From assembly GCA_022844135.1 (NCBI GenBank), contig JALHMG010000006.1, positions 1-64,000 on the forward strand: 64,000 nt of DNA. Direction: 5' to 3'. Position numbers and translations under genes: made by a program. The notes under the pieces were generated by a model. That model worked only from the letters and a program-made list of their open reading frames with translations. It had not been told where the DNA came from and did not search any database. Positions 4,694 through 52,762 of this stretch are shown piece by piece (positions within the stretch are counted from its first letter, which is position 1; each line of letters begins with the position of its first letter). Origin of the DNA: Lysobacterales bacterium. GTDB lineage: Bacteria; Pseudomonadota; Gammaproteobacteria; Xanthomonadales; SZUA-5.

Positions 4694-7600
4694 CTATCGG
4701 CGCTGTGCGCTTTCCACTTCCGCCAAGGCTTTCTTCGACGACATCGAGTCGGCATGGGCGGCACCGAGCAGCCGTTCCCGTCTCGCAATCGCTTCGCGCA
4801 ACAGCGACTCGGCTGCACTCCACTCGCCTGAGTCTTTAAGGACCAAAGCCAGGTCATGGATCGTTTCGAGGGTGTACGGATGCTCGTCTCCGATCGTGCT
4901 TCGAAGTACGTCAAGCGCGGTCATGAGCAGTTGCTTTGCTTCGACAAGCTTGCCCTGGAGCCGCAACCAATTGCCAAGGTGAACTTGTGTCTTGACCGTT
5001 TCAATATGCTGAGCGCCTTGGACCTCCAAACTGATGGCTAGCGTCTCGCGCTGGAGCGCGATTGCATCGTCCAAGTTGCCGCGCTGTGCTTTGATCAGCG
5101 CAAGATTGGATGCCGCTGTGGCGGTGTGCGGGTGGCGGCTGCCAAAATGGCGCTTCGCGCCGTCGAGCACGTCTTGACCGATCGATTCCGCCAGCTCGAA
5201 TTGGCCAAGTTCCGAAAGGATGCTGGCATACCCCGACATGGCGGCAAGCGTCATCGGGTGCTCGCTGCCCAACGTCCGTCGCTTTGCTGCCACAACCTGC
5301 CGTGCGAGCGGTTCTGCTTCGGCGAGTCGGCCGCTGAACTCATAGGCACTGCTCAAACTGTCCATCGAAACCAAGGTGCGCCGATCCTCCGCACCGTAAA
5401 GCGCTCGCCGCGCCGTAACAACGCCGCTGAGAAGGCGCACTGCTTCCTCGGCGCCGCCGTCCTCTTTCCGCCAAAGCAGCGTGCCAAGCTCGTGCTGCGC
5501 GTCAAGCACCATCGGGTCGTCGGCGCCGAGTCGATTGAGCAGTCCAGATTGCGCAGCACGAAGGTCCGCTTCGCCATGTGCGTACTGGCCCAAATGCAGG
5601 TAGATGGTGCCGCGAACTCGCAGCGCGTCCAAGGTCTCCGGGTGGTCTGCGCCGAGCAGCTCCGCGCGCCGTGCGAGCGCCGGCGTCAAGACCTTCGCGG
5701 CGCGTTCGTATTGGCCTAGATTGGTCAGTCCAACGGCAAGCGATTGCCAGAGGCGTGCTTGAAGCAGCGGATACGCGGCGAACTCGCGCTCAATGGCCTG
5801 CAGCGACGGCTGGAAGTATTGGGCGTCCAGTTGATCGATCGCGGCGTCGGTGAAGTTGACGCTGTTCAGCCAGTCCTTGATGGTCCGTGTGCGCCCTTCC
5901 GTGGCCCCTGAACCGCTGTCGGATGGCAATGCTTTGAGCAAACTATTTCGCAGCGCCAAACCCATTTCGCTGGGCTCAATCGCCTGCAGTTGCCGAACTT
6001 GGAAGTCGGCAGCCCTGGTTGCCTCTTCCGCCGCGATGCGCGCTTGTTCCAGCGCGCTTTCGGCGCGAATGAAGCTAACGATTGCGGCAGACACGGCCAT
6101 CGTAAGTACTGCGACTGCGGCGCTCCCGAGCCATACCGTCGTGCGATGACGCCGAACCAACTTGCGCAATCGATATCGCCAGGATATTGGCCGGGCTTCG
6201 ACGGGGCGACTGTCCAGCCAGCGACGCAGGTCTTTTTCCAACTCCAACACCGACGGATAGCGCTCGTTGGGATCGTGCTCCAGGCACTTGCCGACGATCC
6301 AGGATAAGTCCGAGCCCAGGGTTTGTTTCATCTGCGCGACGGTCATTTTGCGCCGCTCGGCAATCTGTTCCTCGGCATTGGCTTCCAGACTGGTAAAGCG
6401 TTTCAGCAATGGCGGTACCGGGTTGCGCAGGCGTTTGGTCAACTCCACTGGCGATTGCGCTGCGAGCACGTCTTCGCTGTAGGGCGTTACGCCGGCCAAC
6501 AGCTCGTACAACATCACGCCCAATGAGTAGATGTCCGAGCGCGTGTCGACGGCCGCCGAATGGCCGCCGATCTGCTCGGGGCTGCTGTACGAAGGCGTGC
6601 CGACGAAGCTGCCGATTTGGGTGTGCGCGGTGAGTCGACCGAGCTTGCGCTGCAGCGATTTGGCGACGCCGAAATCGATGATTTTGGCGGTGGCCGGCTG
6701 GCCTTGCGCACTCTTGATCAGGATGTTGCTGGGCTTCAAATCGCGATGGATGATGCCCTTTTGGTGCGCGTGCAAGACGCCATCGCACACTTGCAGGAAC
6801 AACTCGATGCGCTGGCGAAAATCCAGCTCGCGCTCATCGCAATGCGCGGTGATTTCCAGGCCCGGCACAAACTCCATTGCGAAGAACGGTCGTCCGGTGG
6901 CGCTGCTGCCGGCCTCGTAGACGGCCGCCACATTGACGTGATTCATTAATGCCAGCGCCTGGCGTTCGCCCTCGAAGCGCGCCAGTACGTCCATCGTATC
7001 CATGCCAGCCAGGATCACCTTCAGCGCGACCTGGCGCTGCACCGGTTCGCGTTGCTCGGCCAGATAGACAACGCCCATGCCGCCCTGGCCGAGCTTTTCG
7101 ACGACGCGGTATGGGCCGATGGTCTGGCCGGCTTTCACCTCCAGTTGAACGTCGGGCCGTGCTTCGATTCGGTCGGTGTTCCCGGCACTGGGCAGCGGCG
7201 GTGCTAATGATGCCTGGGCTTCCTGAGTCGGCACGACCGACGCTTGCGAGCTGGTGAGGTCGCGCAAACGTTCTACGACGACGGCAGCGGTCGGCCGCTG
7301 CGCGGGTTCTGGATCCAGGCACGCGGCAATCAGATCGCGAAGACTTGCATCGTCGATGGCAAGCTCCCACCCGGCGGCTGGGTGCGCCAAATTGCCGCAG
7401 GCGGTTTGCTGCAAAAGCACGCCGAACGCGTACACATCGCTGGCGGCCGTGGCCTCCTCGCCTCGGACACGTTCGGGCGCCAGATGCACTGACTGCTGCA
7501 AAGCCAGATGGCCCGGCAATGTCAGCCCCACCGAAGTGATCGCCCCAAGCCGCGATCGATCGGGCAATTCTCCGAAACCGAACTCGCCAAGCCGGGGTTG

Positions 7601-8419
7601 CAACTGGCCGTCGTCTTTGACCAAAAATATGCTGTCCGCCGACACATTGCGATGCACGACGCCAGCGTCGTGCACCGCCGCCAGGGCCGCCGCGATGGCG
7701 GACATCCAGCGCAAGCGCTCGGCCGATGCGATGTTGCCGATCCCACCGATTGTCTCGGCGTAAGACGACAACGCGCCGAGCGGGAAGTGTTCGAGCTCCA
7801 GAAAGTATGGCGGTTCGTCGAGCTGCCACGTTGTGATGTGCGCGATGTCCGCGCGCTCGCCCAGGGCCTGTTGCAGATAGCGCAGCAGCGTGGCTTCGCG
7901 ACGCAGTAACCGCAAATGCTGCTCGTCGCGACAGAAACGAAACACCCGCAGCGCCGAGTCGGGTCCGGTCGCCAACCAGGTCTCACTGACCGCATTCGAG
8001 GACAGCAGCCTTTGCAACCGCCAACCCAGTGCGCCGGGAATCTCGGCGCCTGCCTCGAAGGCGACCGGCTTGGCGGCCTCCAGTCTCCGCGCTGTCGTGC
8101 TCAACTGATAGCCCCGCCGTGGGATGGTGCGGATCAGCGGGTGATCTCGATCGGAGTCGTCGAGCGTCTGTCGCAAATCGGAAACGGTGTCGGTTAACCC
8201 GGTGTCGCCCACCAGCGCATTGTTTTCCCAGACGACTTCGATGAAGGTTCTGCGCGCAACAACTTTGCCCTCGGCGCTGGCGAGCAGGGCCAACACCTCC
8301 AACTGCTTGCGCCGCGCGGGGCGTTTGCGGCCTTTGTACTCAATGACGCCAGCCAGAGGGTCGACGATGCGTCCAGCGAGTTCGAAAGAAAACGAGAGGT
8401 AGCTATCGTCCAAAGTCAT
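4694..8419 (-). CDS. Winged-helix / pseudokinase / Ser-Thr kinase / TPR receptor
   Basis: 1241 aa from the ATG at 8419 (MTLDDSYLSFSFELAG); a TTG start 93 bases upstream adds an unsupported tail. Order: OmpR-type winged helix (about 12-107, ending IRTIPRRGYQL); a first kinase-like domain (about 130-390) with HRN (256-258) instead of HRD, GEFGFG (278-283) instead of DFG, Arg in place of the ATP-binding Lys and no glycine loop, so catalytically dead; a second domain (from about 437) with GQGGMGVVYL, HRDLKPSN and IDFGVAKS, so active; one membrane segment (about 770-792); then TPRs to the end. Winged-helix plus TPR receptors are known, but a DNA-binding-type domain joined to tandem dead/live kinases is unusual. 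The winged helix would be cytoplasmic, tethered to the membrane. Ligand and substrate are unknown. Confidence 0.85.
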   Translation of the reverse strand: MTLDDSYLSFSFELAGRIVDPLAGVIEYKGRKRPARRKQLEVLALLASAEGKVVARRTFIEVVWENNALVGDTGLTDTVSDLRQTLDDSDRDHPLIRTIPRRGYQLSTTARRLEAAKPVAFEAGAEIPGALGWRLQRLLSSNAVSETWLATGPDSALRVFRFCRDEQHLRLLRREATLLRYLQQALGERADIAHITTWQLDEPPYFLELEHFPLGALSSYAETIGGIGNIASAERLRWMSAIAAALAAVHDAGVVHRNVSADSIFLVKDDGQLQPRLGEFGFGELPDRSRLGAITSVGLTLPGHLALQQSVHLAPERVRGEEATAASDVYAFGVLLQQTACGNLAHPAAGWELAIDDASLRDLIAACLDPEPAQRPTAAVVVERLRDLTSSQASVVPTQEAQASLAPPLPSAGNTDRIEARPDVQLEVKAGQTIGPYRVVEKLGQGGMGVVYLAEQREPVQRQVALKVILAGMDTMDVLARFEGERQALALMNHVNVAAVYEAGSSATGRPFFAMEFVPGLEITAHCDERELDFRQRIELFLQVCDGVLHAHQKGIIHRDLKPSNILIKSAQGQPATAKIIDFGVAKSLQRKLGRLTAHTQIGSFVGTPSYSSPEQIGGHSAAVDTRSDIYSLGVMLYELLAGVTPYSEDVLAAQSPVELTKRLRNPVPPLLKRFTSLEANAEEQIAERRKMTVAQMKQTLGSDLSWIVGKCLEHDPNERYPSVLELEKDLRRWLDSRPVEARPISWRYRLRKLVRRHRTTVWLGSAAVAVLTMAVSAAIVSFIRAESALEQARIAAEEATRAADFQVRQLQAIEPSEMGLALRNSLLKALPSDSGSGATEGRTRTIKDWLNSVNFTDAAIDQLDAQYFQPSLQAIEREFAAYPLLQARLWQSLAVGLTNLGQYERAAKVLTPALARRAELLGADHPETLDALRVRGTIYLHLGQYAHGEADLRAAQSGLLNRLGADDPMVLDAQHELGTLLWRKEDGGAEEAVRLLSGVVTARRALYGAEDRRTLVSMDSLSSAYEFSGRLAEAEPLARQVVAAKRRTLGSEHPMTLAAMSGYASILSELGQFELAESIGQDVLDGAKRHFGSRHPHTATAASNLALIKAQRGNLDDAIALQRETLAISLEVQGAQHIETVKTQVHLGNWLRLQGKLVEAKQLLMTALDVLRSTIGDEHPYTLETIHDLALVLKDSGEWSAAESLLREAIARRERLLGAAHADSMSSKKALAEVESAQRR

Positions 8420-8669: not shown

Positions 8670-9368
8670 TCATTGCCCGAGCACGGCGCGGAGATGGCCT
8701 ACATGCGAGCGGCCCACGGGAAGTTCGCTGCCATCGCGCAGCCTCAGCCAATAGCGGCTGCCCGAGGCGCAATGGAACTCTGCAATGTGTTTGAGGTTGA
8801 CCAGGTAAGAGCGGTGGCAGCGCACGAAATCGTGCGGCAGCAGTTGCGCTAACGCCGCCAAAGATTTCTCGTGCAGCTCGCGCCGGCCATTGGACAGGCA
8901 CAGCTCGCTGAGCGCCTCGTCGGCACGCACCCACTGGATGTCGTCTACGGCTACTGTCGCAACGGCTTTGGCGCGCCACACGCCCAGGTAACGCAAGGCG
9001 CCCGTCCGAAAGCTGGAGACCTGGAGCAGCCGGTCCAGCGCCGCGTGCAAGCGATCTCTAGAGAATGGCTTGGCGACAAAGTCCAACACACCAAGCTCAA
9101 AAGCTTCCAGCGCGCGCTCGCGGTGCGCCGATACGACCACGCATTGATAGCGTCCGGCGGTGCAGCGGCGCAACAACTCAAAGCCGTCCTCGCCCTCGAG
9201 ATTGAGATCGAGCAGCAGTGCGTCGTACGCCGTTCGCTCAAGCCGATCGACAGCCTCTTCCGTCGTGGCAACCGCGTCGAATCGCGCCCGCTGCTGGGCG
9301 TATTCCTGGCACAGCCGCAGCAATCGACTGCGGATCAGCGGTTCGTCCTCGCAAATCAGGATGCGCAT
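8670..9368 (-). CDS. LytTR-family response regulator
   Basis: 232 aa. Receiver domain (1-120): acidic pair at E7-D8, phospho-acceptor D54 in LLLDLNL, and conserved Lys in FVAKPF. The C-terminal LytTR DNA-binding domain (about 135-230) has the typical FVRCHRSYLVNL and ELPVGRSH motifs. The sensor kinase gene overlaps its start by 13 bases, so the two form one operon and very probably a cognate pair. Target promoters are unknown; the big kinase gene downstream on the same strand (250 bases away) is a candidate. Confidence 0.9.
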   Translation of the reverse strand: MRILICEDEPLIRSRLLRLCQEYAQQRARFDAVATTEEAVDRLERTAYDALLLDLNLEGEDGFELLRRCTAGRYQCVVVSAHRERALEAFELGVLDFVAKPFSRDRLHAALDRLLQVSSFRTGALRYLGVWRAKAVATVAVDDIQWVRADEALSELCLSNGRRELHEKSLAALAQLLPHDFVRCHRSYLVNLKHIAEFHCASGSRYWLRLRDGSELPVGRSHVGHLRAVLGQ

Positions 9369-11110
9369 CGGAACTCGATCTCAGTAAACCACTCGCCATT
9401 GGCAACACCTTGATGGAATCGATAGTCGCCGTTGCTATGCATCGCCAAGCTTTCCGTGATGTAGGCGGTGCCAGTGCCGTGCCCGGGCCGGCTGGACGTG
9501 GCGAGCGCGCTCCACAATTGCAGGCGGCACTGGTCCTGGATGCGTTCAACGCGTAGCCGAAATGGTGCTGCAGCGCAGGCCCTGACGCCGGCATGGGTCA
9601 GCGCGTTTTCGATTTGCGTGTGCAGCAGACCGACCGGCAGCCGCACACCGGCGGTGAGCATTTCCACGTGCAGGCGCAATTGAATTTGCGACGCGCCGCC
9701 GACAACGTCGAGATAACGCTGGCACAAGCCGACTTCCTCGCCGATCGGAATCAAGGCCTGGCTATGGGCTTGGCGAAATTGCGCAAAAAGCTCGGAGAGT
9801 TGCTCGACCAGGACACTGGCCTGCTGTTGGTCGGTCTCGATCAGTTCCTGCAGCGCCGTGAGCGTGTTCATCAGCCAATGTGGCTGCAATGCGCGGCGCA
9901 AGAGCTGTAGCGACAAATGCTGCTTCTGCGCGGCCAGACGCTCCAAACGTTGCGCCAGACGTCTTTCGACGGCGCCATGCTGCAACAGCAGGATCACGCT
10001 CAGTACGCTGACGGTGATGATGTGCGGGCCATCGAGGAAGAACACACCCAATGCGGCTGTCGCCATCAAACCCAGGGCGACCAACAGCAGCAGGCGAGCG
10101 CGCAGCAGGCTCCGCTCGGGTGCCAGTATCAGCAGCACTAAACAGGCGCAGAAGCCAGCAAAAAATAGCGACAGACCGCGGGCATCGAACGACCACGGAA
10201 GCAATGTGGCCAACGCCAGCAGCAAAGCGTAAAGACCCACGACACCCGTCCTCAGCGCCACGCCGAAGCGCTTGTGCAGGTAGTACGGCAGGGCGAAAGC
10301 CAATACCGCTTGCAGGCTCAAAATCAGGATCATTCTTGCGCCGTGCCATGGGTAGCTGTAGCCGACAATCGCCCGGCTCGCTTCAGTCAACAGCAGCAGC
10401 GCGCTGGCAACCCCCAGCATGAGCAACGCAGTGCGGCCATCGCCGCGGCGGTTGTCGTGCTGCACGGAAGAGAGATAGCCCAGCGCAACCATCAGCGCGC
10501 CCAGGGTGAGTGCGGCCAGCAACCAGGGGCGAAAGCGCCACGCCTCGAGCGCCTCGGTCGGCGCGATCAGCAGCCAATGCCCTGCCGACTGAAAACGCAG
10601 CATCGGCTGCTGCGATGAGGCGCGAATCAGCAGCACATTGCTGCGCTGCACGGGCGCATCGAGGGCGACGCGGTGCTCGATGCGCCCCGGCTGCTCAAGC
10701 GCTGCACTGTCGGCAACGCGACCATTGCGACCAAGCAGCGAACCGTTCCAATAGATGTCGGATGCGGCACGCAACGACAGCGCGAGGCTCAGCGGCCGAT
10801 CGTCGCTGCGGGGTTTGGGCGCCAGTCGATAGCGGATCCAATACGGGCCGCGCCATTGCGCGAGCAGCGTCTGGTCCAGCTTCTGCCACTCCAGGGTGCT
10901 GGTCGCCGCAGGACTCGATGGCGGTTCGTCCACCGCCGGCGCCATCTCCGCGTCCAGCACGGAGAACGCCATGGGCGGCGGCCACGCCAGCGCCACCCAT
11001 GCAACGAGCAGCGCGAGATAGATCAGGCCCGGCCAGATCAGAGCCCAAAGTCGGGTTCTCGCTTGATGGTCGAGGTTGGTACGCAAAAGCACATCCTTGC
11101 CGCGCGACAA
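9356..11110 (-). CDS. Membrane sensor histidine kinase (LytS/YehU type)
   Basis: Up to 584 aa. One N-terminal membrane helix (WPGLIYLALLVAWVALAW), a periplasmic domain resembling the 7TMR-DISM sensor fold, about six or seven further membrane helices, then a His_kinase-family domain with QPHWLMNTL (phospho-His), an N box (QIENALTHAG) and a glycine-rich GHGTGTAYITESL ATP lid. It autophosphorylates and passes phosphate to the LytTR regulator encoded immediately downstream. The start is uncertain: 11110 is a TTG, and another in-frame TTG eight codons later lies about 7 bases after AAGGA. The 145 bases between it and the divergent hydrolase gene hold both promoters. Confidence 0.85.
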   Translation of the reverse strand: MSRGKDVLLRTNLDHQARTRLWALIWPGLIYLALLVAWVALAWPPPMAFSVLDAEMAPAVDEPPSSPAATSTLEWQKLDQTLLAQWRGPYWIRYRLAPKPRSDDRPLSLALSLRAASDIYWNGSLLGRNGRVADSAALEQPGRIEHRVALDAPVQRSNVLLIRASSQQPMLRFQSAGHWLLIAPTEALEAWRFRPWLLAALTLGALMVALGYLSSVQHDNRRGDGRTALLMLGVASALLLLTEASRAIVGYSYPWHGARMILILSLQAVLAFALPYYLHKRFGVALRTGVVGLYALLLALATLLPWSFDARGLSLFFAGFCACLVLLILAPERSLLRARLLLLVALGLMATAALGVFFLDGPHIITVSVLSVILLLQHGAVERRLAQRLERLAAQKQHLSLQLLRRALQPHWLMNTLTALQELIETDQQQASVLVEQLSELFAQFRQAHSQALIPIGEEVGLCQRYLDVVGGASQIQLRLHVEMLTAGVRLPVGLLHTQIENALTHAGVRACAAAPFRLRVERIQDQCRLQLWSALATSSRPGHGTGTAYITESLAMHSNGDYRFHQGVANGEWFTEIEFRCAS

Positions 11111-15715: not shown

Positions 15716-17857
15716 ATGCGCCATTTACTGCTGTTTGCCGCGCTCGTCGCACCGGCGGCGCTCGCTCAGACGACGCCGCACCCGATCATGTTCGTCACTC
15801 AGGTGCCGGTGCCGGTCGACTTCGCAACCGTCGGCAGCACCTTTGCCAATCACATGGCGGACATGCGCAGCGTCTGGCGCGGCGGCGATCTGTGGATTCG
15901 CTACGGCGACGGTACGCTGCGCAATCTGACCGCCGAAGCCGGGTTCGGCAACGCCGGCTTTCAGGGCGCCAATGCCATCGCGGTGCGCGATCCCGCGGTG
16001 CATTGGGACGGCACGCGCGCCGTGTTCGCCATGGTTGTTGGAGCGCCGCCCAGTCAGTTCCAACAGCTCACGTTCCGTTGGCAGCTCTTTGAGGTCACCG
16101 GATTCGGTGCAGGCCAAACGGTATCGATCACGCCAGTGCCGAACCAGCCGCCGTTCAACAACGTCATGCCGGCTTATTTGTCCGACGGCAGCATCGTGTT
16201 TTCGTCCGATCGCGCTCGCGACGGCTCAGCGCATTTGTATCCGCAGCAGGACGAGTACGAGTCCACCGAAACCGTCACCGGCCTGTGGCGCCTCGATCCC
16301 GCCACCGGCCAGTTGACGCTGCTCGATCACTCGCCGTCGGGCGATTTCGATGCCTTCGTTGACAGCTTCGGGCGCCTGCTGTTCACGCGCTGGGATCATT
16401 TGCAGCGCGACCAGCAGGCCGAGGTGCCGAGCAATCTGAATTTCGATTGGGCGAGCGAGGCGGCGAACGCGGCCACGTCGGCACCGAGCGAAGTATTCCC
16501 CGAGCCGCGCGTGTCGGTGGTCGGATCAGGCATCAATGGCCACCGCTTGAACAGCTTCTTCCCCTGGGAACTGCGCCAGGATGGCACGCATGCCGAATTC
16601 CTCAATCACCTGGGTCGCCACGAGTTGCAGGGCTATTTCGACCGCAGTTTCTCTACCGACGACAACCTGCGCGAGTTCATCGGTGAGATCAGTGGACGAA
16701 CCAACCCTCGTCCGATCGAGAACACCTTCCAGATGAGCGAGCACCCAACCATCCCCGGCCGCTACCTCGCCATCGATGCGCCAGAGTTCAACACGCTGGC
16801 TTCGGGTCAACTCCTGCGCTTCGACGCGGCGCCCAGCGTCAATCCCGACGACATCGTCATCGACTACCTCACCCCACGCAGCACTTTCGGCACAAACCCA
16901 GCGCCCGATCACAGCGGCCACTATCGCAACCCGATTTATCTGAGCGATGGCAGCATCGTTGTCGCCCACACCAGCGAGCAGGGCGGCATCGCGAATGTCG
17001 GCACCGCGACGGCACCGCAGCCGAACTACCGCTTTCGCCTCAAACGCATGGTCAATGGCGTCGGCGGGTTCCTGTCTGCCGGCGCGCCGCTGAATGCGCC
17101 GATCAACAAAACGGTGAACTGGTGGAGTCCCGATGTTGCCGTGAGCTACAGCGGCGAGCTATGGGAATTGAGTCCGGTGGAAGTGCGCGCGCGCACCGCG
17201 CCGACGTTCACCCGCGAGCCGCCGCTGGCCGCGCCAGAGGCGGCCGCATTCGCCGCCGCTGGCGTGGCGCCCAGCACCTTCCGCGCGTACTTGCGCGCGC
17301 AGAATCTGGGCCTCATCACCGTGCGTAACAACACCGCGCGCGACGACGCCGATCGGCAACAGCCATTCCGCCTGCGAGTACCGGGCGGCACCAGCCACCT
17401 GCCGGGCAGCGGCACGATCTACGACATCCGCCACTTCCAACTCGTACAAGGCGATCAAGTGCGCGGCATCGGCGGCGCCACCAACCCCGACCCCGGCCGC
17501 CGCGTCCTCGCGCGCTTTATGCACGGCACACCAGCGAGTTTGAATCCGCCCAATCCCACTGGCCCCACCAGCAGCGTTGGCATCTTCAGCGATGGCTCGT
17601 CCGCGTCCTTCGTCCCCACCCGCCGTGCGTTGAGCTGGCAAACCACATCGCCCGACGGCACACCCGTGGTTCGCGAGCGCTTCTGGCTCACCCTGCAACC
17701 CGGCGAAATCCGCGCCTGCGATGGCTGCCACGGCGTCAATCGCAACGGCCAATCCGGACAGCCGGCCGCGACCAACACCCCGCAGGCATTGATCGATTTG
17801 TTGCAGCGTTGGAGTCAGGCAAACGGCGGATTGATGTTTGCGGATGGGTTTGAGTGA
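15716..17857 (+). CDS. Large secreted protein with CxxCH heme motif
   Basis: 713 aa. Signal peptide 1-17 (ending ALAQ). The body has TolB/propeller-like stretches (YLSDGSIVFSSDRARDGSAH, and again PIYLSDGSIVVAH), so a beta-propeller is likely. Near the C-terminus EIRACDGCHGVNRNG has one CxxCH heme-binding motif, as in cytochrome-like domains of secreted or cell-surface redox proteins. The last residues FADGFE match a short C-terminal tail I associate with exported proteins of Lysobacterales; its role is unclear. AGGGGGAT lies 5 bases before the ATG. No neighbour points to a pathway. Confidence 0.7.
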   Translation: MRHLLLFAALVAPAALAQTTPHPIMFVTQVPVPVDFATVGSTFANHMADMRSVWRGGDLWIRYGDGTLRNLTAEAGFGNAGFQGANAIAVRDPAVHWDGTRAVFAMVVGAPPSQFQQLTFRWQLFEVTGFGAGQTVSITPVPNQPPFNNVMPAYLSDGSIVFSSDRARDGSAHLYPQQDEYESTETVTGLWRLDPATGQLTLLDHSPSGDFDAFVDSFGRLLFTRWDHLQRDQQAEVPSNLNFDWASEAANAATSAPSEVFPEPRVSVVGSGINGHRLNSFFPWELRQDGTHAEFLNHLGRHELQGYFDRSFSTDDNLREFIGEISGRTNPRPIENTFQMSEHPTIPGRYLAIDAPEFNTLASGQLLRFDAAPSVNPDDIVIDYLTPRSTFGTNPAPDHSGHYRNPIYLSDGSIVVAHTSEQGGIANVGTATAPQPNYRFRLKRMVNGVGGFLSAGAPLNAPINKTVNWWSPDVAVSYSGELWELSPVEVRARTAPTFTREPPLAAPEAAAFAAAGVAPSTFRAYLRAQNLGLITVRNNTARDDADRQQPFRLRVPGGTSHLPGSGTIYDIRHFQLVQGDQVRGIGGATNPDPGRRVLARFMHGTPASLNPPNPTGPTSSVGIFSDGSSASFVPTRRALSWQTTSPDGTPVVRERFWLTLQPGEIRACDGCHGVNRNGQSGQPAATNTPQALIDLLQRWSQANGGLMFADGFE

Positions 17858-25420: not shown

Positions 25421-25981
25421 TTGGAACTCACGGATCTGATCCACCTCGCGCGCGGCGGAAGCCGGGACGCGGCGGATAAGCTGTTTGCCGATGTCTACGC
25501 CAATCTGCACCAGATCGCGCTCAAGCAATTGCGCGAGCAGCCGGCGCCCATGGGGGCGACTTCGCTGGTGCATGAGGCGTACTTCCGCCTGTCGCGCCCG
25601 GAGTCTCTGAGTTTGCAGGATCGCCACCACTTCTACGCGGTGGCAGCGCGAGCCATGCGGCAGATCCTGATCGATCGCGCCCGCCAGCGGTTGGCGCAAA
25701 AGCGCGGCGGCGATGCCGACGTCACCGATATCGATGGGCTGCATGATGAGCCGCAGACTGCCGACAATGGCAATCGGCTGTTGGCGCTCGATCAGGCGCT
25801 GACCGAACTGGAAGCCTTGGACGCGCGCCTCGCCAAGCTGGTGGAGCTGCGGTTCTTTGGCGGCCTGACCTTGGACGAGGCGGCGGATGCGGCGGCGGTT
25901 TCGCGCACTACCGTCAAGCGCGATTGGCGCCGCGCGCGCGCCTGGTTGCACGCGGCCTTGGGCGACGCGAGCTGGGCATGA
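25421..25981 (+). CDS. ECF-type sigma factor
   Basis: 186 aa from a TTG start with GGAG seven bases upstream. Region 2: ANLHQIALKQLREQ, SLVHEAYFRLS, HHFYAVAARAMRQILIDRAR (the -10 contact helix). Region 4: LVELRFFGGLTLDEAADAAA and VSRTTVKRDWRRARAWL (helix-turn-helix). This subfamily is typically encoded beside Ser/Thr kinases, and here the stop overlaps the kinase ATG (ATGA), so phosphorylation by the kinase is the likely control instead of an anti-sigma factor. A TATAAAAT stretch 35 bases upstream may be part of its promoter. Confidence 0.9.
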   Translation: MELTDLIHLARGGSRDAADKLFADVYANLHQIALKQLREQPAPMGATSLVHEAYFRLSRPESLSLQDRHHFYAVAARAMRQILIDRARQRLAQKRGGDADVTDIDGLHDEPQTADNGNRLLALDQALTELEALDARLAKLVELRFFGGLTLDEAADAAAVSRTTVKRDWRRARAWLHAALGDASWA

Positions 25982-28776
25982 GCGATTCGAGCGAACGCTG
26001 GCAGCGCCTGATGCGCCACTTCGATATTTTGTCGGAGTTGCCCATCGAGGAGCGCGCTCAAGCCGTTGCGCGGCTGGCATGGGAGGAATCCGATGTCGCA
26101 GACGAATTGGAGCGGATGCTGTACGCGGATGCTGCGGGCGAGGGTTTGCTCGATGGACATGCGCTGAGCGAGGCCGAGCCTGAGCCGCCGTTGCCGCCGG
26201 CGCCAGTGCCGGATCGCAGCGGCGAGCGCCTCGGCGGCTTTGAGCTGCTCGAACGCCTGGGATCGGGCGGCATGGGCGAGGTTTACCGCGCTCGTCGTTC
26301 CAGCGGCGACTTCCACCAAGAGGTCGCCATCAAGGTGTTGCGCGGTGGCCTTGGGCCCGACTTCACCGCCCGCTTCGCGCGCGAGCGACAGATCCAGGCT
26401 CGGCTGACGCATCCGCTGATCGCGCGATTGATCGATGCCGGCGTCGATGGCGACACGCCGTGGCTGGCGATGGAGCTGATTCGTGGCGAGCACGCGGTGG
26501 CGTTTGCAAAAGCCCATGCCCTGCCCATCGCCGCGCGCCTGAAGTTGGTGGAAGACGTGGCCGGCGCTGTCGACTACGCGCACCGGCAACTGATCGTGCA
26601 CCGCGATATCAAGCCCTCCAACGTTCTGGTCGACGAGTCGGGCACGCCGCATCTGCTGGACTTCGGCATCGCCAAACTGCTGGAACCGGGCGATGCGACC
26701 GAGCTGACGGCGAGCGATATGCGCGTGATGTCGCCCATGTACGCCGCGCCCGAACAGTTTCGCGGCGAGCCGATCACCACCGCTACCGATGTGTACGCGC
26801 TCGGCCTGCTGCTGTGCGAGTTGCTGACCGGGCAACTCCCGCACGGCCGTCGCGACAGTCCCAGCGGCGTTGCGCAAGCCGTCGCCGACGACGCAACGCA
26901 GCGCCCGAGCCAGCTCGGCGAGAACAGCGGTTCGGGGCGTATCGACGCCGAACTCGATACCATCGTGCTGAAAGCGCTGGCGCTGGAGCCGGAACGTCGC
27001 TACCCGTCTGCGGCGGCGCTGGCCGAGGATTTGCAGCGCTATCGCGAAGGTCGTCCGATTCGCGCCAAGCCAGATACCTTTTCATATCGCCTGGCCAAGT
27101 TTGTGCGCCGCCACCGCGGCGGTGTTGCCACTGGCGTGTTTGCGCTGATGTCGCTGCTCGGCGGCCTCGGCGTCGCCCTATGGCAAGCGCACGTGGCGCG
27201 CGAACAGGCGCAGATTGCGCAAGCGCAAACGCAGCGCGCCGAGCGCGTCAAGGCTTTTTTGACCTCGCTGTTTGCCGAAACCGAAGGCAACACGCGACAG
27301 ACAGCCTCGGCGCGTACGCCGCTGCAGATGGTCAGTTCGGGTATCGAGCGTGCGCAGATCGAACTCGCACAGGATCCGGCATTGCTGGACAGCGTGCTGG
27401 GCGATCTGCTGGACATCAAAGTCAATCTGGGCGGCGCCGCGGAGGCGCTGCCGTTGCTTGAGGAGCGCATCGCATGGCGCCAGCAGCGCGATCCGCTGGA
27501 CGAATCGCTGGCGGTCGCTTTGTCGAGCAAGATCACGGTGTTATTTCAAAAAGGAGCGTTCGCCGACGCCGAGCCGCTGATCGCACAAGCCATCCAGATT
27601 TATCGCGCGCATCACCCGGAAGACCATCTGCGCATTGCCGACATGCAGAATCGCCAGGTGCGGGTATTGCTGTCCCGCACGCAGTACCCCGAGGCGCTCG
27701 CGCTGATGCGCGAGGTGGTGGCCAAGTTCGAGAAAGGCCGAGGCAAGGATCACCCCGATGTCGGCCTTCGCCTTAGCAATCTGGCGACGCTGCAACAGCG
27801 CACTGGCGATGTGGAGGGCGCGCGCGCGTCCTTGGAGCGGTCGCTGGCGATACTCGAGCGGGCGCGTGGCGTCGACCATGCGCAGCTCGCATTTCCATTG
27901 ACCAACCTGGGCGACTTGCTTCGCAACCAGGGACGCTTTGGCGAGGCGCTGGGCCATTACGAGCGGGTGCTTGCGATCAGCCGAAAGCAGCATGGGGATG
28001 CGCATTTCAATACGGCGGAAGCCCTGGGTCGTGTTGGCGACATGCAGCGCCGACTGCGGCAGTTCGACGCCGCCAAGGCCTCGCTGAGCAAGTCGCTGGC
28101 GATCCTGGAAGCGGAGCGCAATAACAGCCTTGCAGACGTTTATGGTCGCCTCGGTCAACTGGCAGTGGCGCAGAACCAGCCGGAAGAAGCAGCCCAGTGG
28201 TTCCAGAAAGCCTATGACTTTGCGTCCGCAACCCAAGGCGAGCGCCACATCCTCACCTGGCATCATCTGAGCGCACTGGCGCTGGTGCGCGCGCATCAAG
28301 GCCGATATGCAGAAGCACGCGAAGGGCAGCGACGAGCGATCGGGGGCCTTGTCGCGCTCGGCGACGCTGGCGCCAAAGACGCCGCCCTCAGTCGATTCGA
28401 ACTCGGCGCTATCGAACGCGACGCCGGCAATCTCGACCTGGCCGTCGACCTCATGCTCGACGCCGATGCCGAGGCGCGCAGCCTCTTGTCCGAGAGCGAC
28501 CCCAGGCTGACGATATTGAGCGCGCACCTGGCGACGGCGCTTGCGCTGCGCGGAACCCCAGCCGACGCCGACACCGCGCGGCAACTGCTGATCGATATTC
28601 AAGACGCACTGACTACGGCGCAGCCGGAAACCAAGGCGCTGGCGGCACTGGCGCGGGCGCGATTGGCGGTGGATGCCGCTTCGCGAAGCAGCGCCCTTGC
28701 CGATCTCGACGCAGCGCTGGCACTGCTAGGCAGCGACGGCACGTGGCTGCGGTCGCAACGTGCGAAGTTCGACTGA
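25978..28776 (+). CDS. Ser/Thr protein kinase with TPR sensor
   Basis: 932 aa from the ATG overlapping the sigma-factor stop. Order: about 80-residue helical N-terminus (WQRLMRHFDILSELPIEERA), Hanks kinase (about 83-350: RLGSGGMGEVYRA, VAIKVLRGG, VHRDIKPSNVLVD, LLDFGIAKLL), one membrane helix (VATGVFALMSLLGGLGVALW, about 385), a Q/A-rich coiled coil, then TPRs to the C-terminus (KGRGKDHPDVGLRLSNLATL and similar units of about 42 residues). By orientation the TPRs are periplasmic, sensing a ligand, and the kinase is cytoplasmic. Its probable substrate is the overlapping sigma factor. Confidence 0.9.
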   Translation: MSDSSERWQRLMRHFDILSELPIEERAQAVARLAWEESDVADELERMLYADAAGEGLLDGHALSEAEPEPPLPPAPVPDRSGERLGGFELLERLGSGGMGEVYRARRSSGDFHQEVAIKVLRGGLGPDFTARFARERQIQARLTHPLIARLIDAGVDGDTPWLAMELIRGEHAVAFAKAHALPIAARLKLVEDVAGAVDYAHRQLIVHRDIKPSNVLVDESGTPHLLDFGIAKLLEPGDATELTASDMRVMSPMYAAPEQFRGEPITTATDVYALGLLLCELLTGQLPHGRRDSPSGVAQAVADDATQRPSQLGENSGSGRIDAELDTIVLKALALEPERRYPSAAALAEDLQRYREGRPIRAKPDTFSYRLAKFVRRHRGGVATGVFALMSLLGGLGVALWQAHVAREQAQIAQAQTQRAERVKAFLTSLFAETEGNTRQTASARTPLQMVSSGIERAQIELAQDPALLDSVLGDLLDIKVNLGGAAEALPLLEERIAWRQQRDPLDESLAVALSSKITVLFQKGAFADAEPLIAQAIQIYRAHHPEDHLRIADMQNRQVRVLLSRTQYPEALALMREVVAKFEKGRGKDHPDVGLRLSNLATLQQRTGDVEGARASLERSLAILERARGVDHAQLAFPLTNLGDLLRNQGRFGEALGHYERVLAISRKQHGDAHFNTAEALGRVGDMQRRLRQFDAAKASLSKSLAILEAERNNSLADVYGRLGQLAVAQNQPEEAAQWFQKAYDFASATQGERHILTWHHLSALALVRAHQGRYAEAREGQRRAIGGLVALGDAGAKDAALSRFELGAIERDAGNLDLAVDLMLDADAEARSLLSESDPRLTILSAHLATALALRGTPADADTARQLLIDIQDALTTAQPETKALAALARARLAVDAASRSSALADLDAALALLGSDGTWLRSQRAKFD

Positions 28777-50296: not shown

Positions 50297-50440
50297 CACG
50301 GAATCTCCTGAGTGCAAAAAAGCGCCGACGTCGGGCGCTGCGGGGCGCGGAGCATAACGCGCACAGATGAGAGTGACACAGTGCGGACAAGTTTCGGCCT
50401 GCTAAACTGGTGCGTCTCTCACCGTTCAGGATTCCCGCCC

Positions 50441-52762
50441 GTGGCATTTCCGGAGATTCCAGGCTATGCGCTGGAACGCCAGCTCGGCTCCGGCGGCATG
50501 GCGACAGTGTATCTGGCGGTGCAACTGTCGCTGGAGCGGCGCGTTGCGATCAAGGTGCTACGCACCAGCGGCGCCGAGGACGATCCGGAACGCACCGAGA
50601 AGCGCTTCCTGCGCGAGGGCCGCACACTCGCCAAGATCACCCACAAGAACGTCTGCGGTATCTATGACATCGCCAAAGTCGGCGACATCGCCTACATCGC
50701 GATGGAGTATCTGGACGGCGGTACGTTGGTCGACAAGCTCAAGCGCGGCGTTTCGGTGGCCGAATCGATTGCGATTGTGGTGCAACTGGCCTCGGCACTC
50801 GATGAGGCGCACAAGCTCGGCATCGTCCATCGCGACTTGAAGCCCGCCAATGTGATGTTGCGCGGCGGCCGCGTGCCGGTGCTGACCGATTTCGGCATCG
50901 CGCGCGAGCTGACGGCGAGCCAGACGCGTATCACTGCGGAAAACATGATCGTCGGCACGCCGATTTACATGAGCCCGGAGCAAGTGTCCGGCGGCGAGGT
51001 GGACGGGCGCTCCGATTTGTACTCGCTCGGCATCATGTTTTACGAGTTGCTGATCGGGCGTCCGCCCTATCAGGGCGACACGCCGATCGCGGTGTGCATG
51101 CAGCATCTGACCGCCGATCTGCCGCGCCTGCCGGCAGATTTCGCCGATCTGCAACCGGTACTCGATCGCATGCTCGCCAAACGTCGCGACGAGCGCTTTG
51201 CGAATATGGCGGAGTTCAACCACGCCCTGCGCGACGTGTTCATCGCCTCGGAGGCGCTGCGCCGCGTGCTGCGTTTTGCGCCCGATACGCCGTGGTCCGA
51301 GCAACTACGTGATCTGGGTTTCTCCTTCGATACGCTGCGCGACGCCGACGTCAGAGCGGCGCTCGACAAGCAGCGCGCAACGCGGGTGGCGCCGAAGCCT
51401 AAAGTCAAGGCGGCGCCGACGCCGCGCCAACCGCGCCCGATCGGACTGTGGGCCGGCGCGGCAGCGGTCGTGCTGGCGCTCGGCGCTGGCGGCTGGTGGC
51501 TGGCGACGCGGCCGGCTGCAGTCGACAACACGGAAGTAGATCTTGTGCGTGTGCAGCTGCTGAACACGCAATTGGAAGCGGTGCAGGAAAAACTCAACGC
51601 CGGGCAGATCGATGTCGGCCCCGGCAACGCGCTTTCGAAGCTGCAGGAAATGCGCAAGGTCGATGCCGACTCCGATTACGTGCGCCGTGCCGCCGAAAAA
51701 ATCGTCGCGATGCTTGAGACGCGGGCGCGCGGCGAGCTTGCGGCGCAAGACTTAGGCGCGCTCGACCAAACCCTGGCATCGATGCGGACTGCCGACCCGA
51801 ACGCGACAGCGCTGGCCGATTTGTCCGCCCAGCGCGCTACGTTGGCGCAAGCGCAGGCGAACGCCGCGGCAACCCGACAGCGCCTGCAGCGCCTTTCGCA
51901 ATTGCTCGATGGCGCCCAACCCGCCAGCGGCGAGCGGCTGATCGATGTTTATCTGGACTTGCAGCGAACGCTCGGCAACGATCCGGAATTCCGGCGCCTG
52001 GAGCCGCGCGCGCAAGGGGCGTCGATGGCCGCCATCCGCACCGCGCAAGCCGCCGGCCAACTGCAATTGGCGCTCACCGACGCCAACGCCCTGGCGCGCG
52101 CAATGCCCGGCAACCGCGATGTGCAGGCGCTGGCCGCCAAGCTTCAGGAAGACTTGAATCAGGCCGCGCTCGGGCAGGCACTCGACCGTTGGCGGGGGCA
52201 GCTCGCACAGACGCTCGATGCCAGTCGGTTGGCGTCGCTGCTTCAGGGTCTGCGCGAGTTGGCCGATCTGAATCTGCCGGAGCGCGATCTCGCCGGCCTG
52301 CGCCAACAGCTCGCGACCGCGCTGGCGAATCAGGCGGCCGCGATGGAGCAGGCCGGGCGTTTCGACGACGCCCTCGCGCTGATCGGCCAGGCGCGGCGCG
52401 AGCTGCAGAGCGCCGAACTCGATCAGGCGCAAACTCGGATCAGCGCGGCGCGCGATGCGTCGCTGGCCAATGAGCGCGCGGCCGCGGAAGCGGCGCGTCA
52501 AGGCCAGCTGGCGATCAGCACCGCGCCATGGTCGACCATCGAATCGGTGGTCGACGACGCCGGCAAACGCGTCGCCTTGCCGCGCGATGCTGCCACACCG
52601 CTGTTGCTCAAGCTGGCTGAAGGGCGCTATCGCGTGACCTTGGTGAGCGGCGCGCAGCGCCGACAAGAGAGCGTAGTGATCGAGCGCGGCAAGCTTTCCA
52701 GACTGTCCGTGAAGCTTGGCGGCCTCGACAGCGAGGCGTATTTCAAGGAGTACGACGGGTGA
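50441..52762 (+). CDS. Ser/Thr protein kinase with PEGA-like tail
   Basis: 773 aa from a GTG (MAFPEIPGYALERQLGSGG); the longer frame upstream has no kinase homology. Kinase (about 8-280): QLGSGGMATVYLA, VAIKVLRTS, VHRDLKPANVMLR, LTDFGIAREL, GTPIYMSPEQ. One membrane helix (about 375-397, GLWAGAAAVVLALGAGGWWL), a long Ala/Gln-rich coiled coil (400-690), and a terminal PEGA-like module (STIESVVDDAGKRVALPRDA, LAEGRYRVTLVSGAQRR). The coiled coil is periplasmic. The next gene overlaps its stop (GTGA) and encodes an exported coiled-coil protein, a likely partner. Confidence 0.88.
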   Translation: MAFPEIPGYALERQLGSGGMATVYLAVQLSLERRVAIKVLRTSGAEDDPERTEKRFLREGRTLAKITHKNVCGIYDIAKVGDIAYIAMEYLDGGTLVDKLKRGVSVAESIAIVVQLASALDEAHKLGIVHRDLKPANVMLRGGRVPVLTDFGIARELTASQTRITAENMIVGTPIYMSPEQVSGGEVDGRSDLYSLGIMFYELLIGRPPYQGDTPIAVCMQHLTADLPRLPADFADLQPVLDRMLAKRRDERFANMAEFNHALRDVFIASEALRRVLRFAPDTPWSEQLRDLGFSFDTLRDADVRAALDKQRATRVAPKPKVKAAPTPRQPRPIGLWAGAAAVVLALGAGGWWLATRPAAVDNTEVDLVRVQLLNTQLEAVQEKLNAGQIDVGPGNALSKLQEMRKVDADSDYVRRAAEKIVAMLETRARGELAAQDLGALDQTLASMRTADPNATALADLSAQRATLAQAQANAAATRQRLQRLSQLLDGAQPASGERLIDVYLDLQRTLGNDPEFRRLEPRAQGASMAAIRTAQAAGQLQLALTDANALARAMPGNRDVQALAAKLQEDLNQAALGQALDRWRGQLAQTLDASRLASLLQGLRELADLNLPERDLAGLRQQLATALANQAAAMEQAGRFDDALALIGQARRELQSAELDQAQTRISAARDASLANERAAAEAARQGQLAISTAPWSTIESVVDDAGKRVALPRDAATPLLLKLAEGRYRVTLVSGAQRRQESVVIERGKLSRLSVKLGGLDSEAYFKEYDG

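Follow-up and report, generated by a model that had tools for sequence, protein, structure and literature searches.

What can a kinase fold still contribute to a protein once catalysis has passed to a neighbouring kinase in the same chain? This question is raised by a gene of the Lysobacterales bacterium contig JALHMG010000006.1 (assembly GCA_022844135.1), of which we analysed positions 1 to 64,000 (hereafter the window, i.e., this whole stretch of 64,000 nucleotides). The product of 1241 residues carries a winged helix, a first kinase-like domain (K1), a linker, a second kinase domain (K2), a membrane helix and a tetratricopeptide repeat (TPR) region. Judged by its sequence, K1 is a pseudokinase that has retained its fold, and it is the dead relative of a still-intact family of winged helix proteins with one kinase, a kinship absent from the first-pass annotation of this DNA. 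We give roughly even odds (about 0.5) to the reading that two receptor-like regulators were fused in this protein and that K1, catalytically dead, serves as a GCN2-like relay between K2 and the winged helix.

Anatomy of the two-kinase protein

The gene runs on the minus strand from an ATG at 8419 to a stop codon at 4694-4696 with zero internal stops, and the alignment of homologues begins near the same N-terminus. Pfam searches with the whole protein recovered Trans_reg_C, Pkinase in two stretches (the better one at 437-721; E 6.6e-58 over the entire protein) and C-terminal TPR_10/TPR_12 repeats; NCBIfam returned no model at its cut-off (best 25 of 28 matches). A profile of the front half matched the solved domains of ToxR (listed as Cholera toxin transcriptional activator) and CadC (listed as Transcriptional activator CadC), and together with the Pfam match this identifies an N-terminal OmpR-type winged helix as found in ToxR/CadC-type regulators. 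The one-chain order of winged helix, dead kinase, intact kinase, membrane helix and TPRs, which the first-pass annotation had proposed from the letters alone, was borne out by Pfam and hydropathy, with exact coordinates (Table 1). The window protein is a real, conserved bacterial membrane protein with an intact reading frame.

To assess K1 by itself, residues 122-398 were compared with Pfam Pkinase, which they matched at E 9.1e-14 and 51.9 bits (cut-off 31.7). A single-sequence search further retrieved two practically tied hits, solved PknA at E 2.4e-8 and, at E 1.7e-8, GCN2 in its first kinase-like stretch. These matches dispel the concern, raised at the outset, that residues 130-390 might not be kinase-like. 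An AlphaFold2 model of residues 1-430, built from four sequences, reached a moderate mean predicted local distance difference test score (pLDDT) of 66.6; its residues 121-393 superposed on solved kinases with Z 22.7-23.2 and a root-mean-square deviation of 2.3-3.0, and the best 50 of the 1000 chains compared, themselves Foldseek's own best, were all kinases. This comparison (Z about 23) supports the kinase fold of K1 and nothing finer.

A domain of this fold is regarded as a pseudokinase when the beta-3 Lys, the HRD Asp or the DFG Asp is lost, and in the window protein all three are gone. In addition, Ser263 replaces the loop Asn and the glycine loop is absent, with retention of the alpha-C Glu175, the APE Glu316 and the F-helix Asp328. 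The lost and kept motifs had been listed correctly from the start, and the description of K1 as a genuine pseudokinase with a preserved fold holds by sequence and predicted fold.

K2, on the other hand, displays the complete set of catalytic motifs of a PknS-like Hanks-type receptor kinase, namely Lys467, Glu485, HRD 558-560, Asn565 and DFG 582-584, invariant in six aligned proteins. PknS was the best-scoring solved chain among those compared with K2, and PknB was likewise among the best. An intact kinase, predicted to be active, therefore accompanies the pseudokinase on the same chain, as first proposed, and K2 is likely the only catalytic centre of the fused protein. Basic residues precede the membrane helix, which is why the N-terminal part is likely cytoplasmic and the TPR part is predicted to be periplasmic, a topology suggested by charges and hydropathy and also by relatives. 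The earlier idea of a membrane-tethered head of DNA-binding type fits this arrangement, with the winged helix on the likely cytoplasmic side of the membrane helix and predicted to bind DNA.

Table 1. Coordinates of the two-kinase gene and of its features in the window
Feature	Position	Strand	Basis
Whole gene, 1241 residues: winged helix, pseudokinase K1, linker, kinase K2, membrane helix, TPR region	4694..8419	-	Open frame without stops
Winged helix, Trans_reg_C core, residues 36-106 (domain about 1-112)	8102..8314	-	Pfam E 1.8e-12; profile match to ToxR, CadC
Pseudokinase K1 (by sequence), residues 125-390	7250..8047	-	Pfam Pkinase 51.9 bits; predicted fold Z about 23; model pLDDT 66.6
Arg161 in beta-3 Lys position	7937..7939	-	Arg in 9/9 two-kinase proteins; Lys in 67/69 one-kinase rows
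HRN 256-258 instead of HRD	7646..7654	-	Alignment
EFG 279-281 instead of DFG	7577..7585	-	DFG Asp lost in 9/9 two-kinase proteins
APE 314-316, retained	7472..7480	-	E316 conserved in two-kinase and one-kinase classes
Variable linker K1-K2, residues 391-430	7130..7249	-	Mean pairwise identity 14.7% (six proteins); pLDDT 30-35 by blocks
Hanks kinase K2, motifs intact, residues 431-735	6215..7129	-	Motif alignment; top solved chain PknS, Z 25.8, 40% identity
Membrane helix, residues about 766-784	6068..6124	-	Hydropathy 2.21 over 19 residues; basic residues on N-terminal side
TPR region, residues about 888-1235, predicted periplasmic	4715..5758	-	TPR_10 (6 stretches), TPR_12 (7 stretches)

Two-kinase proteins, their shared losses and their intact relatives

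The search for the same domain order that the first-pass annotation had called for uncovered nine proteins with a winged helix and two kinase domains, distributed over six assemblies. The source genome (5.34 Mb, 75 contigs) encodes three further full proteins of this order, at contigs C10, C5 and C58, and thus four full copies. A truncated fifth copy on C5 (L007:3699-4733) breaks off within K1. It lies 2.4 kb ahead of a full copy, to which it is identical at 261 of 320 aligned residues (82%); the gene of a Calx-beta protein separates the two. The other members are L024, from a Lysobacterales metagenome-assembled genome (MAG; JALHRS010000009.1) and equal by position and scores to L029 of G003; L025, from a Rhodanobacteraceae MAG (JAEUPP010000033.1); L026, from MAG contig JAIXTI010000248.1; and L041 and L042, from two genomes of one other genus of the same order. 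Counting the source genome, 4 of the 398 genomes of an order-level sample harbour such a protein. Samples of the class (369 genomes) and of the phylum (398), which overlap in part with the order sample, contained none at E 1e-40 beyond the source genome, and the rows fetched from them have one kinase each; the best four to five candidates per genome were scored, so that distant copies could be missed. A scan of genome contigs, which detects only DNA matching two short patterns, gave four loci, three of them with two-kinase proteins and one, L027, with an ordinary kinase.

Catalytic motifs were scored in 78 rows with a front-half profile match of at least 150 bits (nine two-kinase and 69 one-kinase), after removal of nine duplicate loci (L028, L029, L032 and L034-L039). 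All nine two-kinase K1s have lost the Lys, the loop Asn and the DFG Asp, have Arg at the beta-3 position and keep the alpha-C Glu; the HRD Asp is lost in seven and retained in L007 and L008. The catalytic residues of K2 are kept in all nine, with Ala in place of the first loop Gly in L008 and L026, and the hydrophobic segment is present in seven, the contigs of L026 and L041 ending before its position. Since these losses recur in nine of nine proteins from six assemblies, we rejected a sequencing error or frameshift as their source, the second circumstance that might have undone the original proposal. The two-kinase proteins look like one lineage, and the shared losses may accordingly represent a single evolutionary event that was kept rather than nine.

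The same alignment bears on the possibility that K1 binds nucleotide in an unusual way, with an Arg161-Glu175 pair standing in for Lys-Glu, and works as a switch that senses a ligand, or that it has some other activity, e.g., AMPylation or glutamylation. Consistent with this, Arg and the alpha-C Glu co-occur in all nine K1s, Cys163 is invariant among the six aligned two-kinase proteins, and Lys-to-Arg pseudokinases of the DYD family have been modelled with bound ATP, according to the consulted part of a review (PMC12599244). However, the glycine loop, the loop Asn and the DFG Asp have been lost with varied replacements (S, R, A or T; E, A or G), and this variation argues against a conserved metal-nucleotide site in K1; we consider the explanation rather improbable.

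Constraint on K1 was inferred from the conservation and divergence of the aligned proteins. Mean pairwise identity across six of them amounts to 55.8% in the winged helix, 43.5% in K1, 14.7% in the linker, 56.9% in K2, 51.8% in the membrane segment with its flanks and 28.5% beyond the membrane. The conserved head and K2 and the variable outside part would suit a constant output with a varied sensor, i.e., paralogues sensing different signals. For L008 and L026, nonsynonymous (dN) and synonymous (dS) divergence were 0.213 and 0.893 in K1 (dN/dS about 0.24) and 0.119 and 1.053 in K2, and K1 thus looks to be under purifying selection, less strongly than K2. This estimate rests mainly on that pair, many others having dS > 1 and one yielding no value, and a second dN/dS method gave results in only 3 of 15 comparisons. 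If K1 were instead a decaying remnant with a role only in spacing, its lower conservation relative to both the winged helix and K2 would be anticipated, and one source-genome copy is indeed cut off inside K1, as described above. The dN/dS ratio in the single pair with moderate dS, the predicted fold and the frame that is open through K1 in all nine two-kinase genes nonetheless render decay very unlikely.

The closest relatives of the front half of the window protein belong to a family with a homologous winged helix, one kinase and a membrane helix in a similar layout, mostly about 900-960 residues long and present in 51 of the 398 order genomes. The family, of which L044, L049 and L072-L074 are examples, is also scattered over the phylum sample, and its intact kinase often has an LHKDLKPAN-like loop. 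Pfam revealed TPRs in the three source-genome members tested and none in L071, a frame that its locus does not contain in full; a hydrophobic segment occurs in 28 of 29 one-kinase proteins, L010 having none; and L044 and L010 are without an NCBIfam model above cut-off among the best 25 matches. The family differs from the two-kinase proteins in that Lys, Glu, Asp, Asn and Asp are all canonical in 66 of its 69 rows and in that no second kinase was seen in the scored rows, two of which (L088 and L094) stop at contig ends too early to exclude one. The three exceptional rows are the truncated two-kinase copy L007:3699, L011 and L107. Residues common to the intact and the two-kinase class include the alpha-C Glu, the APE Glu and the F-helix Asp, whereas the catalytic Asp, the loop Lys-Pro, the loop Asn, the DFG Asp and an activation-loop Gly-Thr are among those whose conservation is confined to the intact class.

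A maximum-likelihood tree of 59 kinase domains, among them eight K1 and eight K2 rows (without L041 and the truncated copy), placed all K1s in one group (support 100/98) adjoining the one-kinase family (98/94). The K2s formed another group (100/99), joined (100/98) with three single-kinase proteins of the source genome that resemble the TPR part, too, in their C-terminal portions. The bootstrap was not fully settled, three branches were long, including the K1s of L042 and L011, the composition of L042 was off, and the root was placed at the midpoint. On these well-supported separate groups, we rejected an origin of K1 and K2 as a tandem duplicate. L008 and L026 pair as sisters among the K1s and again among the K2s, the pattern that a single fusion passed on as a unit would leave. 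The simplest history looks like one event that joined a winged helix-kinase front to a receptor kinase, together with loss of catalysis in K1. HRD persists in L008 but is HRN in its sister L026, which means that this Asp either disappeared more than once or came back, unsurprising if it no longer matters to K1.

A possible relay through the dead kinase

The anatomy, the catalytic losses, the conservation and the grouping in the tree are established by this analysis, and they frame the following proposal. The front part (winged helix and K1) would be akin to the winged helix-kinase-membrane helix-TPR family, and the back part (K2, membrane helix and TPR) would correspond to a PknS-like receptor kinase. 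Extrapolating topology, sensing and autophosphorylation from relatives, periplasmic TPRs would perceive a protein or envelope signal and restrain or activate K2 at the membrane; the signal would release or dimerise K2, which would then autophosphorylate. We infer that K1, dead but folded, may act as an allosteric partner and docking surface that sets K2 activity, much as in GCN2, and may hand the state of K2 on to the winged helix, which would bind and act on DNA while tethered to the inner membrane, as CadC does.

Several observations weigh against this proposal. K1 evolves faster than K2, and part of it may be relaxed. The kinase of L011 (source genome, C7; L011:2882-5728) is dead, with Arg, HQS and NLG at the diagnostic positions, and L107 (reverse strand) has GLG at the DFG site, with the Lys, HQD and the loop Asn kept; neither has a K2 in the chain, and K1 death therefore does not need K2. 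A model of the two-kinase protein (mean pLDDT 63.4, predicted template modelling score 0.45) is too weak for the K1-K2 interface. Upstream of six two-kinase genes, no shared DNA motif stood out beyond shuffles (scores of 39, 49 and 58 for words of 10, 14 and 18, vs shuffled means of 39.7, 49.5 and 58.6), and the 15 neighbours tested at six two-kinase loci included no common partner by Pfam.

L011, in particular, speaks most strongly against a K1 that works solely on K2. It favours an alternative in which K1 is coupled only to the winged helix, either as a rigid adaptor or as a clamp that inhibits the head, and K2 has substrates of its own, e.g., a sigma factor, as in the PknS-EcfK pair. The winged helix and K1 also form one unit in the one-kinase family, and the variable linker between K1 and K2 points the same way. 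Yet K1 motifs are lost in nine of nine chains with K2 and, with the truncated copy set aside, only in L011 and L107 among 68 one-kinase rows, which indicates that loss of K1 catalysis goes with gain of K2. This association has its own limit, as the two-kinase K1s are one tree group and perhaps record one event rather than nine. We regard the uncoupled arrangement as unlikely, though less so than a nucleotide-binding K1, and retain the relay from K2 through K1 to the winged helix as the preferred reading.

Known systems, neighbouring genes and implications

Among known systems, PknS of Xanthomonas citri (kinase domain 9eed) shares with the K2 half the order of kinase, membrane helix and C-terminal TPRs, differing in the 83-residue segment that precedes its kinase in place of the winged helix and the pseudokinase. 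In the portion of the PknS study consulted, the kinase is cytoplasmic, the TPRs are periplasmic and required in vivo, and the protein acts on the sigma factor EcfK; PknS without its periplasmic part was phosphorylated under non-inducing conditions, unlike the full-length protein, and did not complement the deletion (PMC13147305). CadC/ToxR-type regulators resemble the window protein in their N-terminal winged helix, single membrane helix and C-terminal outside part, whereas the latter has two kinase domains between winged helix and membrane.

For the dead/live pair, GCN2 appears a better parallel than the JAK-type regulation that the first-pass annotation had invoked. JAK/TYK2 likewise places a pseudokinase (JH2) immediately before an active kinase (JH1), and to that extent the comparison stands. 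JAK/TYK2, however, are tyrosine kinases with FERM and SH2 domains before the pseudokinase; Pfam disclosed neither domain in the window protein up to E 1, the winged helix being there instead. K2 is a Hanks kinase with PknS and PknB as its top-scoring solved relatives, and K1 and K2 fall in different tree groups, so that the likeness is one of functional analogy only. The solved TYK2 pair 4oli was among the K1 matches, through chain residues 432-557, which we take to be the kinase half rather than the pseudokinase. In GCN2, a pseudokinase likewise stands N-terminal to a Ser/Thr kinase of the same chain, and the stretch of GCN2 that K1 matched lacks HRD in the alignment; GCN2 differs in being eukaryotic and cytosolic. 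The GCN2 family carries RWD and HisRS-like domains, of which Pfam found none in the window protein up to E 1. In yeast Gcn2, the pseudokinase is reported to contact the kinase domain that follows it, and without this pseudokinase starved cells do not attain high-level activity (PMC4014428).

Bacterial pseudokinases are, in the sections of the review cited above, experimentally largely unexplored and comprise seven families (ActPs1-3, GLW, CP1, DYD and DLHK), which, like K1, have lost canonical motifs in a Hanks-fold domain. Compared by description, K1 was rejected as a DYD pseudokinase, a family with the beta-3 Arg in which the alpha-C Glu is absent, as this Glu is kept in nine of nine K1s. 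CP1 and DLHK pseudokinases have no membrane helix, and CP1 is linked to COG3899; the membrane helix of the window protein likewise led us to reject both assignments (PMC12599244). Those sections describe no family with a winged helix or a same-chain active kinase, and the terms tandem, two kinase and wHTH are absent from the main text. For planctomycete serine/threonine kinases, mostly periplasmic TPR arrays have been described, and the part of that article covered holds no mention of pseudokinase or two kinase (PMC11032199). Searches of open-access literature, which leaves subscription papers and preprints mostly outside its coverage, disclosed neither a fusion of a winged helix with a kinase nor a bacterial pairing of pseudokinase and kinase. 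The parts and the principle are already known; it is the combination and the intact sister family that were not found there.

Directly upstream of the two-kinase gene, 250 bases away on the minus strand, lie genes for a LytTR response regulator and a His_kinase-type histidine kinase (8670-9368 and 9356-11110), a pair not seen among the tested neighbours at the other five two-kinase loci. A conserved operon partner was rejected, as the 15 neighbours compared at the window, L006, L007, L008, L024 and L025 differ by Pfam; they include this pair, Calx-beta, an esterase, a lipase, a winged helix-TPR protein and a sensor kinase, and some have no match. The same type of winged helix is fused to other second domains (nSTAND1, PD40 propeller, TPR) in L018:1-2865, L019:2997-5219, L020:1868-3910, L024:3093-5726 and L025:10537-12690, two of which adjoin a two-kinase gene. 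The window contains two more Ser/Thr kinase genes on the plus strand (25924-28773, with TPRs, and 50312-52759), and the source genome dozens of kinase matches. Further observations concern RCC1 repeats in the gene after L011; an odd pairing of an IS1595 transposase zinc ribbon with a class 3 lipase in one frame (L006:7273-8121, source genome C10); and a plus-strand 713-residue protein (15716-17857) matching the hydrazine synthase alpha middle domain (E 3.4e-8).

The window protein is a bacterial parallel to dead/live kinase pairs as they occur in animals and fungi, and suggests that a Hanks kinase and a ToxR-type head can perhaps cooperate within one membrane protein. To our knowledge, same-chain pseudokinase-kinase pairs described so far are all eukaryotic. 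Tentatively, and at somewhat less than even odds, an active kinase might signal via a dead kinase of its own chain to a DNA-binding head, thereby uniting sensing, phosphorylation, allosteric relay and transcription control in one molecule, with a pseudokinase born of fusion whose own catalysis had become dispensable. If this is true, pseudokinase-kinase allostery would have evolved in bacteria independently of JAK and GCN2. The intact one-kinase family, the dead-plus-live family (four full copies in the source genome) and the one-kinase protein with a dead kinase form a natural series, a simple system in which one can test what remains for a kinase fold to do after catalysis passes to its neighbour.

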